From a virus, in the IMG/VR virus record IMGVR_UViG_3300007162_000032, positions 1 through 20,699 of that record: 20,699 bases of DNA. One strand, written 5' to 3'. Both the position numbers and the translations under genes were made by a program. Positions 5,856 to 9,766 of the stretch are shown piece by piece (within the stretch, counting starts at the first letter, position 1; every line of letters starts with the position of its first letter). The notes beneath the pieces are model-generated. The model saw nothing but the letters and a program-made list of their open reading frames with translations, did not search any database and had not been told where the DNA came from.

Positions 5856-5883
5856 TTGACAATAGTGAACTTAGTTGTACAAT
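5856..5883 (+). promoter_or_regulatory. Sigma70-type promoter for guaC
   Basis: TTGACA (5856-5861), a 16-bp spacer and TACAAT (5878-5883), directly after the previous stop codon. The predicted start of transcription is within a base or two of the ATG at 5890. A 10-bp direct repeat, ACAATAGTGA, occurs at 5859-5868 and 5879-5888, exactly 20 bp apart and overlapping both promoter elements. It could be an operator. Confidence 0.7.
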
Positions 5884-5889
5884 AGTGAT

Positions 5890-6906
5890 ATGCAATCCTG
5901 TCTAGATTACTCGGATGTTCTAATCGTACCTCGCCAGTCTGCGGTCAATTCGCGCTCAGATGTTAATCTGATGCGAACAATTGGTCGTATTTCTTGGACT
6001 GGTGTTCCAATAGTGGCTGCAAACATGGCGACGATTGGTACACTGGAGATGGCAGAAGCCCTCAGCAAGTATCAGTGGCTGACATGCCTACACAAGCATT
6101 ATACCTCAGAAGAAATTTTGTCTCTATCGTATCATGGGCAATATTTCTCTGCTCCAACTATCGGACTTGATACGACTAGCCAGCAAACATTTCGGCAAGT
6201 CATGAAGTCTGAGAACAAGTTCAAGTTTGTTTGTATCGATGTTGCAAATGGTTACATCGATAATTTCAGTCAGTTAGTGTACAATATTCGCCAAGAGTAT
6301 GGTGAAAGAGTAAATATCATTGCAGGAAATGTTGTAACACCAGAAGGAGTAAATTTACTATGCAAAGCAGGCGCGGACTTTATCAAGGTTGGAATCGGAC
6401 CCGGAAGTGCTTGCACAACGCGCAAGATGACCGGAGTAGGGTTTCCACAGTTCTCGGCAGTCCAGAACTGTGCAAGAGAAGCACGGAGCAATCCAAATCG
6501 GTTGGGAATAGTCGCGGATGGTGGGTGCGTACATCCAGGTGATGTCGCCAAGGCATTCGCTGCTGGCGCACAGATGGTCATGCTAGGTGGTATGCTAGCA
6601 GGCCACGACGAATGTGGCGGATGGGAGTTTGATTATAATACGAATACTGTGGTTCCAACCTTCTACGGAATGGCATCGGAACATGCAATGAAGACGCATT
6701 ATAATCAACGAAACTCCTATCGTGCCGCAGAAGGCAAGCGAGTAATTGTTGAAGCAAAGGGACCAGTTGAGAATACTGTCACGGAAGTCATGGGCGGTAT
6801 TCGTTCTGCTTGTACCTATGTCGGGGCAAAAAATCTTGATGAATTTTTCAACAATGCCCGATTCATTCAGGTAAATCATCAGTATAATACCGTCTTCGGA
6901 CACTAA
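5890..6906 (+). CDS. guaC: GMP reductase
   Basis: Converts GMP to IMP and ammonia with NADPH. 338 residues from ATG 5890; E. coli GuaC is 347. Family signatures are clear: DYSDVLIVPRQS near the start, VPIVAANMATIGTLEMAEAL, the catalytic-cysteine loop GIGPGSACTTRKMTGVGFPQ (Cys about 175) and VADGGCVHPGDVAKAF with MLGGMLAGHDECGG. These fit GuaC rather than IMP dehydrogenase, and no CBS domains are present. An in-frame TTG at 5875 would add five residues but lies inside the promoter, so the ATG is preferred. No Shine-Dalgarno is seen, so the message may be leaderless. Arginine codons are mainly CGN, unlike the AGA-rich gene before it. It probably salvages host guanine nucleotides toward adenine nucleotides (inference). 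Confidence 0.92.
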   Translation: MQSCLDYSDVLIVPRQSAVNSRSDVNLMRTIGRISWTGVPIVAANMATIGTLEMAEALSKYQWLTCLHKHYTSEEILSLSYHGQYFSAPTIGLDTTSQQTFRQVMKSENKFKFVCIDVANGYIDNFSQLVYNIRQEYGERVNIIAGNVVTPEGVNLLCKAGADFIKVGIGPGSACTTRKMTGVGFPQFSAVQNCAREARSNPNRLGIVADGGCVHPGDVAKAFAAGAQMVMLGGMLAGHDECGGWEFDYNTNTVVPTFYGMASEHAMKTHYNQRNSYRAAEGKRVIVEAKGPVENTVTEVMGGIRSACTYVGAKNLDEFFNNARFIQVNHQYNTVFGH

Positions 6907-7725: not shown

Positions 7726-7800
7726 ATTCCCGTAGCTCAGTTGGATTAGAGCAAGTGCCTTCTAAGCACTAGGTCGTAGGTTCGAATCCTATCGGGAATG
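7726..7800 (+). tRNA. tRNA-Arg(TCT)
   Basis: Full cloverleaf: acceptor ATTCCCG/CGGGAAT, D stem GCTC/GAGC, anticodon stem AGTGC/GCACT with loop CTTCTAA (anticodon TCT, reads AGA), T arm GTAGG-TTCGAAT-CCTAT. Discriminator G; no CCA encoded. AGA is the main arginine codon of the late genes here. Confidence 0.95.
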
Positions 7801-7801
7801 C

Positions 7802-7872
7802 TGAAGATTGGTGTAACGGTAGCACAACTGACTCTGACTCAGTTTGTCCTAGTTCGAATCTAGGATCTTCAA
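7802..7872 (+). tRNA. tRNA-Gln(CTG)
   Basis: Acceptor TGAAGAT/ATCTTCA, anticodon stem ACTGA/TCAGT with loop CTCTGAC (anticodon CTG, reads CAG), T arm CCTAG-TTCGAAT-CTAGG, discriminator A. The U1-A72 pair is typical of tRNA-Gln. The D stem is a short GTG/CAC. One base separates it from the preceding tRNA. Confidence 0.9.
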
Positions 7873-7873
7873 T

Positions 7874-7945
7874 GAGGATGTAACTCAATGGCAGAGTGTG
7901 ACCCTTCCAAGGTCAATGTTGCGGGTTCAAGTCCCGTCATCCTCT
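7874..7945 (+). tRNA. tRNA-Gly(TCC)
   Basis: Acceptor GAGGATG/CATCCTC, D stem ACTC/GAGT, anticodon stem TGACC/GGTCA with loop CTTCCAA (anticodon TCC, reads GGA), T arm GCGGG-TTCAAGT-CCCGT, discriminator T. One base separates it from tRNA-Gln; no CCA encoded. Confidence 0.93.
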
Positions 7946-7946
7946 T

Positions 7947-8020
7947 TCTTCGGTAGCTCAGTTGGTAGAAGCGGAAAGCTGTTAACTTTCATGTCGCTGG
8001 TTCAAATCCAGCCCGAAGAG
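7947..8020 (+). tRNA. tRNA-Asn(GTT)
   Basis: Acceptor TCTTCGG/CCGAAGA, anticodon stem GAAAG/CTTTC with loop CTGTTAA (anticodon GTT), T arm GCTGG-TTCAAAT-CCAGC, discriminator G. The D stem is imperfect (GCT/AGC with an extra A). The tRNA ends only three bases before the ATG at 8024. Confidence 0.92.
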
Positions 8021-8023
8021 TTT

Positions 8024-8624: not shown

Positions 8625-8816
8625 ATGTATAAGCACGGAGAAAAAGTAGTAAATTCGGAAAATAGCCGTCCTTGCACCGTGATTGGATCTCAAACCTCAC
8701 GGGCAAAGGACAAGAAGGGTGTTCTTTACGAAGAAACTGAGTATTGTGTTCGATATGAAGATGGTTCTACCGATTGGATCTCGGCAGAAAACACAAAGAA
8801 GTTCCTAATCGACTAA
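8625..8816 (+). CDS. Small SH3/KOW-like beta-barrel protein
   Basis: 63 residues. It starts immediately after the previous stop, with TTGGAG 7 bases upstream. The pattern MYKHGEKVV, CTVIGSQTSR, YEETEYCVRYEDGSTDWIS with a final ENTKKFL is that of a small five-stranded SH3/Tudor/KOW-type barrel (a Gly turn, then V/I alternation, then DGS turn). No family is assigned with certainty. Its stop overlaps the next ATG (TAATG). Confidence 0.75.
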   Translation: MYKHGEKVVNSENSRPCTVIGSQTSRAKDKKGVLYEETEYCVRYEDGSTDWISAENTKKFLID

Positions 8817-9082
8817 TGGCATACCGAATCCACATTGATATTCCTCTCATGTCCTCCTGCCAAGAGGAGGCTGTGGTGGCTGCTAAGGCCATTATGGAGC
8901 GTCTGGCCTCCCCAGAGGCCCTAGAGTGCGTAAGCCTCCACAAAGGCACACAGGTCAACTATCGTCTTGGTGACGATACTGACCGCCAGAAGAGCAATTA
9001 TTTGGTTTTGACTCCTTCTGGGCATGTTACTAACCAAAAGTGTAAAATTTTCTTGACAGATGAGACATCATCTGTAGAATGA
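8816..9082 (+). CDS. Hypothetical protein (88 aa)
   Basis: 88 residues from ATG 8816, coupled by TAATG to the gene before. An upstream in-frame ATG at 8774 lies within the previous gene and lacks a ribosome site. The sequence is MAYRIHIDIPLMSSCQEEAV and onward, with a beta-alpha-beta-like layout; I do not recognise it. The codons are less AT-rich than those of the late genes. Its last codons contain a promoter (9053-9080) for the RNA and tRNA that follow. Confidence 0.75.
   Translation: MAYRIHIDIPLMSSCQEEAVVAAKAIMERLASPEALECVSLHKGTQVNYRLGDDTDRQKSNYLVLTPSGHVTNQKCKIFLTDETSSVE
9053..9080 (+). promoter_or_regulatory. Sigma70-type promoter for structured RNA and tRNA-Ile
   Basis: TTGACA (9053-9058), a 16-bp spacer and TAGAAT (9075-9080), at the end of the 88-aa gene. 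Transcription would begin near 9087, at the start of a run of hairpins leading into tRNA-Ile. The 16-bp spacing matches the guaC and gp32 promoters. Confidence 0.65.
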
Positions 9083-9086
9083 TGAT

Positions 9087-9170
9087 GTAGCAGGGAACGA
9101 CAAAGAACAAATCGTTCCGCCCTAACGGGAAAGCGAGAACTAACTCGCCAGCACATGTGGTGCTGATATT
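9087..9170 (+). ncRNA. Candidate structured small RNA upstream of tRNA-Ile
   Basis: Non-coding gap filled by three consecutive hairpins: GGAACGA/TCGTTCC (9094-9100 with 9112-9118, 11-base loop), GCGAG/CTCGC (9133-9137 with 9144-9148) and AGCAC/GTGCT (9150-9154 with 9160-9164). A weaker CCC-TAAC-GGG lies between the first two, and GGGAA at 9127-9131 could compete with 9094-9098 for TTCC. It has its own promoter-like sequence and is followed by tRNA-Ile. T4 also carries two stable RNAs of unknown function in its tRNA region. It may simply be a processed 5' leader. Confidence 0.5.
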
Positions 9171-9243
9171 GGGTAGGTAGTTCAATCGGCAGAACCTTCC
9201 GCTTATAACGGCAGATGTGTGGGTTCGACCCCCACCCTACTCA
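9171..9243 (+). tRNA. tRNA-Ile(TAT)
   Basis: Acceptor GGGTAGG/CCTACTC (one G-T pair), D stem GTTC/GAAC, anticodon loop CTTATAA (anticodon TAT, reads ATA), anticodon stem TTCCG/CGGCA with one mismatch, T arm GTGGG-TTCGACC-CCCAC, discriminator A, no CCA encoded. A direct TAT reader of ATA avoids the need for lysidine-modified CAT. It lies 1.15 kb from the other tRNAs. Confidence 0.9.
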
Positions 9244-9257
9244 TTGGAGACATAAGT

Positions 9258-9410
9258 ATGATTATGACTGAAGAAGATAGAAAAATCGTACTACTTCTCA
9301 AGGATGAGATTGAAAAGATCAAGATCAACATGATTCTGGAGAATCGCAAAGTTGATCAAATTGTTTCAGTTTTAAGTAAAATTATTCAAAAGGAGAATAA
9401 AAATGATTAA
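9258..9410 (+). CDS. Small coiled-coil protein (50 aa)
   Basis: 50 residues from ATG 9258, chosen because GGAG (9246-9249) is then 8 bases upstream; a second ATG at 9264 would remove two residues. It is almost wholly charged amphipathic helix with Ile/Leu heptads (KIVLLLKDEIEKIKINMILE). Function is unknown. Its end overlaps the next gene by 8 bases and supplies the Shine-Dalgarno AAAGGAG. Confidence 0.65.
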   Translation: MIMTEEDRKIVLLLKDEIEKIKINMILENRKVDQIVSVLSKIIQKENKND

Positions 9411-9714
9411 TACTAATGTTTTTGGTCTGCGTTGGCTTGCTGCGTTTACTGCGTTCGGTGCTCTGCTTCTGCATCTTGATAATGCAAAGGCTCCAATTGT
9501 CTGGTCGTTCGTTGGCCTGACGGTTTTCCTGCTTATTTGTGAAATTCGTGCTCTTCAGAAGCACATTTGCCAACTTCAAAAGGAATTTGACAATGCGACT
9601 TTCAATGATGAAATTCGCAGCGTCCGAAGTGATATGTGGCGAAATGTGGATGAACTTCACACTCGTATTGAGCAGTGCTCAAATAGCTGCACAAAGGCAA
9701 AGAGCCGTATCTAA
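9403..9714 (+). CDS. Small two-helix membrane protein with coiled-coil tail
   Basis: 103 residues. Two hydrophobic helices are visible, about residues 7-24 (GLRWLAAFTAFGALLLHL) and 30-48 (PIVWSFVGLTVFLLICEI), joined by a short DNAKA turn. A long charged coiled coil follows (about 50-103). The topology suggests both ends on the same, probably cytoplasmic, side. Holin, superinfection-exclusion or host-membrane roles are possible, but none is shown. A strong AAAGGAG precedes the ATG, and the gene is the last before a strong terminator. Confidence 0.75.
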   Translation: MINTNVFGLRWLAAFTAFGALLLHLDNAKAPIVWSFVGLTVFLLICEIRALQKHICQLQKEFDNATFNDEIRSVRSDMWRNVDELHTRIEQCSNSCTKAKSRI

Positions 9715-9737
9715 TACAACTGAATAGTTAGTTTTCA

Positions 9738-9766
9738 AACCCCTTGCTCCAGCAGGGGGTTTTTTT
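9738..9766 (+). terminator. Intrinsic terminator ending the early module
   Basis: Stem AACCCCTTGCT/AGCAGGGGGTT (9738-9748 with 9751-9761; innermost bases form the loop) followed by a run of T to 9766. It closes the plus-strand early module. The stop codon of the convergent minus gene (9767-9765) lies in its T-tract, so the hairpin may also serve that gene. Confidence 0.9.

Follow-up and report, generated by a model that had tools for sequence, protein, structure and literature searches.

A short non-coding stretch directly before the tRNA-Ile(UAU) gene of a T4-like phage, referred to here as leader A, is probably an independent small non-coding RNA of T4-like freshwater phages that shares its promoter with the tRNA, a reading to which, from sequence, we assign a probability of a little under 0.6. 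The stretch of DNA analysed (hereafter the window; 20,699 nt, IMGVR_UViG_3300007162_000032) is a piece of such a phage, and among the best matches listed for its single-strand binding protein are cyanophage and marine virus proteins with 55-60% identity. The source is a freshwater, T4-like virus of bacteria; the psbA/psbD family was found in none of 16 records, all of them fragments, and there is thus no sign of a cyanobacterial host. At positions 5875-6906 this T4-like phage also carries a GMP reductase/IMPDH-type gene, whose best phage matches share 37-49% identity.

Leader A occupies about positions 9087-9170 of the plus strand, from the predicted transcription start to the 5' end of the tRNA, where the putative RNase P site would lie. 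Upstream of it lie four tRNA genes (7726-8021) and, nearer to it, an 88-aa ORF (8816-9082, plus strand), the 3' end of which holds a sigma-70-type promoter on the same strand (9053-9080), comprised of TTGACA (9053-9058), a spacer of 16 nt and TAGAAT (9075-9080), with 11 of 12 consensus letters. The tRNA-Ile gene, with anticodon UAU (TAT), lies at 9170/9171-9244 (9171-9243 by Rfam) and is followed on the plus strand by a 50-aa ORF (9258-9410) and a 103-aa ORF (9403-9714), each of no assigned family and each likely carried on the leader A/tRNA-Ile transcript, and by an intrinsic terminator (9737-9762) that is the probable end of the unit. A single transcription unit from promoter to terminator is plausible from this arrangement, and within the predicted transcript leader A would sit between promoter and tRNA as a tRNA 5' external transcribed spacer does, as far as sequence can tell. 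By itself the promoter is weak evidence, since it is one of two sites with 11 of 12 letters in the 4,001 bases scanned, where 20 promoter-like sites were counted against 11 in shuffled sequence. It becomes convincing through its conservation, because TTGACA-16-(-10 box) with at least 10 of 12 letters is kept in the window and in 30 of 31 related loci, being missing from L043 only, and the consensus-like promoter proposed in the initial annotation can therefore be retained. In the leaderless relatives that hold this promoter, the tRNA starts 8-12 bases past the -10 box, so that transcription would begin almost at the tRNA.

The predicted fold of the 84-nt leader (minimum free energy -28.5 kcal/mol) contains three hairpins and a 3-bp stem. 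Hairpin 1, a perfect and invariant inverted repeat, pairs 9094-9100 with 9112-9118 (7 bp) around an A-rich loop of 11 nt; it is followed by the invariant stem CCC-TAAC-GGG (9120-9122/9127-9129), an extra element that had gone uncounted earlier, by the 5-bp hairpin 2 (9133-9137/9144-9148) with its loop NACTANN, and by hairpin 3 (9149-9154/9160-9165), which stops five bases short of the tRNA. Only 1 of 1000 shuffles was as stable as 9087-9170 (z -4.2), 1 of 200 was as low as 9083-9169 (z -3.6), and the core described below, folded alone, was likewise equalled by 1 of 1000. A fold that beats its shuffles in this way (z about -4) bears out the 84-base non-coding stretch with three hairpins first noticed before tRNA-Ile(TAT). 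The further proposal of alternative folds, with two copies of GGGAA competing for one TTCC, finds no support, the pair probability being 0.998 for the first copy and 0.0 for the second; a switch is likewise not supported. Leader A contains no ORF of at least 60 aa and no listed terminator-like site, and it has neither the acceptor closure nor the T arm of a tRNA, no tRNA being called there and the ends of the fold remaining unpaired.

A search with an exact pattern of 25 core bases retrieves 16 further IMG/VR contigs, and the same 16 are returned by a shorter core pattern and by a hairpin 1 pattern with two free bases; the two core patterns match once each in the window. Leader A stands directly before tRNA-Ile(UAU) in all 16 contigs, and the leader A set holds nine distinct sequences, eight of which are in the final alignment. 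The leader A model, R1, gave one match each in 9 of the 22 whole records searched, all known carriers, and none in the remaining 13, with true members scoring 93-117 bits. Looser patterns also returned five loci (L018, L019, L057-L059) and a GTDB pattern scan another five (L060-L064), of which the eight read (L018, L019, L057-L060, L062 and L063) were judged to be chance; when scored with R1, these ten loci gave 8.7-17.8 bits in six cases and no score in four, and the best of them, L062 from a Yoonia MAG (E 0.021), lies in a probable coding stretch without a tRNA. A pattern for the tRNA only found 22 contigs, namely the 16 with leader A, three with an unrelated leader B, one with B and an extra hairpin, and two that are leaderless. 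Relatives of the protein encoded by the upstream ORF number 31, comprising the same classes (16 A, three B, one B with the extra hairpin and the leaderless L032 and L041) and nine distant members (L042-L050; 38-50% identity), in which a tRNA-Ile-like gene lies close behind the ORF with no leader. In eight of these distant loci (L042, L044-L050), this gene has a CTTATAA anticodon loop and an unusual T arm, and it is called by ARAGORN in none of the eight and by Rfam in none of L042, L044 and L047. A phage tmRNA with the tag ANTRAFAMAA is present in L045-L049, five of the 19 loci scanned.

Across the eight distinct leaders a core of 57 nt (9092-9148) is nearly invariant, with 5 of 57 columns variable compared to 17 of 30 elsewhere in the leader (p = 2e-6) and to 10 of 19 fourfold sites in the upstream ORF (p = 1.5e-4), p values that overstate independence because columns and pairs share ancestry, and for a core whose limits were set after the alignment was seen. 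Within the core, variation is confined to bases in loops and to the pair that closes hairpin 2, and conservation of the core is about equal to that of the tRNA. When L034 is compared with L039, differences are seen at 26 of 76 residues in the upstream ORF, at 8 of 20 of its fourfold sites and at 5 of 73 bases in the tRNA, but at 0 of 57 in the core. Part of the apparent conservation could be due to the spread of leader A by local recombination between promoter and tRNA, both of them conserved.

The pairing was tested on eight of the nine distinct sequences against the fold of the leader in the window, the L006-type leaders, in which the longer hairpin 3 was misaligned, being left out of the pair counts. 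Of all cells, 98.8% pair, compared to 30-38% in slid controls. Hairpin 3 drifts in sequence and keeps its pairing: in two pairs both partners have changed, one pair in L002 only and the other in L004 only, a count reached by 10 of 500 shuffles; one further pair has become G-U (L015); and in L006, L008, L009 and L016 the leader is 23 nt longer, with added paired arms in this hairpin. Hairpin 3 is constrained in pairing, not in sequence. Hairpin 1 and the CCC/GGG stem show zero variation and hairpin 2 loses its closing pair in two of the eight distinct sequences, so that the pairing of these elements, lacking covariation, rests on energy. The compensatory changes that the initial annotation had sought in all three stems are consequently seen in hairpin 3, with its two pairs, and not in the others, which hardly vary.

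Leader B (L053, L055, L056) is unrelated in sequence to A and folds into two strong adjacent hairpins (z -5.5), to which L054 adds an extra one. It is found in four contigs only, always in the slot between promoter and tRNA-Ile, and its final, strong hairpin, like hairpin 3 of A, leaves five bases to the tRNA. The close relatives L032 and L041 have the same promoter and tRNA-Ile with no leader, and from this absence leader A is dispensable; such leaderless promoter-tRNA pairs, present also in the distant relatives, imply that the tRNA does not need a leader. A tree of the upstream ORF with its promoter part removed (28 of 32 rows, 23 distinct; L041, which is partial, and L045, L046 and L048 left out), midpoint-rooted and in large part unresolved, intermixes the leader types inside well-supported groups. 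One such group unites the window and L020-L022 (A) with L023-L024 (B) at a support of 98/99, and another L033, L034 and L035 (A) with the leaderless L032 at 100/100; the six distant rows are all leaderless. Judged from this tree, the leader appears to have been gained or lost where the distant rows split from the rest, and inside the A group it appears to have been replaced by B and also lost. Leader A thus looks like an exchangeable small RNA. Possible, although we advance it tentatively, is the broader view that the stretch from promoter to tRNA-Ile acts as a slot in which phages exchange small-RNA effectors. The tRNA would supply promoter and 3'-end processing, A, B, B with its extra hairpin or nothing would be swapped like counter-defence genes, and both leaders would be phage RNAs that act in trans and are unrelated to each other.

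Leader A resembles no catalogued RNA in the collections searched. Rfam (4227 families) matched only tRNA in the window at gathering thresholds, and between 9000 and 9300, on both strands and at E up to 5, it returned tRNA, a single match below threshold that coincides with the tRNA, and no riboswitch. Among 50,697 phage and 72,556 plasmid records no relative was found at a meaningful E; a 701-base query found nothing in the phage records, and the leader alone found only pieces of 22-39 bases (E of at least 0.7) in phage and plasmid records. A literature search of open-licence papers yielded nothing recognised as leader A RNA. The conserved core, the significant fold, the compensatory change in hairpin 3 and the lack of an Rfam match together uphold the earlier proposal of a structured non-coding RNA with its own promoter.

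For an independent small RNA, transcription would start near 9087 and host RNase P would cut at the 5' end of the tRNA, releasing an RNA of ~84 nt. The constraint on sequence in the core and on pairing only in hairpin 3 suggests that the RNA does its sequence-specific work through its 5' part (hairpin 1, the CCC/GGG stem and hairpin 2), and that hairpin 3 and the five-base tail form a sequence-free 3' cap, which would protect and presumably stabilise the freed RNA. Acting in trans, this RNA may then serve as a sponge, decoy or antisense RNA towards an RNA or protein of the host or the phage. That close relatives do without the leader in making the tRNA speaks for a role that belongs to the leader itself. 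The hairpin found five bases before the tRNA in both A and B is consistent with a 3' cap and with an aid to processing. It may mean that a hairpin at this place is what counts, and A stands before tRNA-Ile in 16 of 16 contigs; both would fit a leader that is mere pre-tRNA sequence, whose hairpins assist RNase P, protect the transcript or adjust the level of tRNA-Ile before being degraded. We regard such a mere leader as unlikely, given the leaderless pairs in close (L032, L041) and distant relatives and a core conserved beyond pairing, which a plain spacer would not need.

Conserved sequence beside a stem held only by structure also resembles an aptamer, and a single transcription unit reaching to the terminator at 9762 is plausible, so that leader A might be a cis-acting 5' regulator (riboswitch, attenuator or protein-binding leader) of the tRNA and the two small ORFs. 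This is quite improbable, as the leader has no listed terminator-like site, no predicted competing fold and, up to an E of 5 on both strands, no match to an Rfam riboswitch, and as processing of the tRNA, which separates the leader from the first ORF, would detach the leader. Near-identical phages differ in having A, B or no leader, as one would expect of cargo related to defence, and solitary small RNAs do serve phages in this way (PMC10651486); a CRISPR-repeat mimic (Racr) or other counter-defence or nuclease decoy RNA is nonetheless very improbable, since an exact-pattern scan of GTDB genomes for hairpin 1 with CCC...GGG gave five loci with one match each and no repeat array. Hardly probable at all is a constraint on DNA or a hidden peptide: the perfect, invariant inverted repeat of hairpin 1 could be a protein-binding site, but the adjacent hairpins, the stem-keeping changes and the lengthened hairpin 3 point to RNA, and indels of 23 nt and 1 nt, not multiples of three, argue against a peptide, as does the lack of any ORF of at least 60 aa in the leader. 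An independent small RNA, if confirmed, would be a phage RNA separate from those of T4, with a defined promoter and with natural variants, since near-identical genomes have it, lack it or carry a replacement; its clear split between sequence-constrained core and structure-only cap would make loss and swap experiments straightforward. It also points to tRNA genes as platforms from which phages can express and process small RNAs.

The initial annotation had likened leader A to the stable RNAs of T4, rnaC (species 1) and rnaD (species 2), which the T4 record annotates as small, stable RNA only and which, to our knowledge, have been without an assigned function for decades. The likeness holds in that all would be small non-coding RNAs whose genes lie among the tRNA genes of T4-like phages, and it does not extend to side of the cluster, T arm or sequence. 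The T4 RNAs (139 and 119 nt) lie after the last tRNA, 3' of tRNA-Arg and at the far 3' end, whereas leader A is 5' of tRNA-Ile; rnaC has a tRNA-like T arm that leader A lacks; and the local alignment scores with rnaC and rnaD, 12 and 11, were no higher than those of 265 and 290 of 300 shuffles, with no match for R1 in T4 69000-75000. Elsewhere in these loci, a hairpin-rich, tRNA-like insert of 116-133 nt lies directly after tRNA-Arg and before tRNA-Gln (L034 1325-1457, L035 1947-2062, L039 1936-2057), similar in all three, with a long extra helix and the T-arm-like TGGGTGCAAATCCCA, and called by neither ARAGORN nor Rfam. Its position 3' of tRNA-Arg recalls rnaD and its T arm rnaC, although its similarity to either is no better than that of shuffles; in the window, tRNA-Arg and tRNA-Gln abut without it. 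Another locus, L020, has ~500 bases between tRNA-Gln and tRNA-Gly (1512-2012), by eye possibly a homing-endonuclease-type insert on the minus strand.

Structured RNAs are also described for related phages, the T4-like cyanophages (CFrI, PhotoRC-II, wcaG and the glutamine riboswitch; PMC9964418), but none of these was matched by Rfam in the window, nor at E up to 5 in 9000-9300. The Racr RNA anti-CRISPRs (PMC10651486) are solitary small phage RNAs, as leader A would be, and mimic CRISPR repeats, to which leader A showed no resemblance in one GTDB genome scan by exact pattern only. The 3'ETS-leuZ sponge of E. coli, a functional tRNA transcribed spacer, is an RNA cut from a tRNA precursor (PMC8166272), as leader A is proposed to be; it is the 3' spacer of a bacterial tRNA and has known sRNA targets, whereas leader A is the 5' leader of a phage tRNA.
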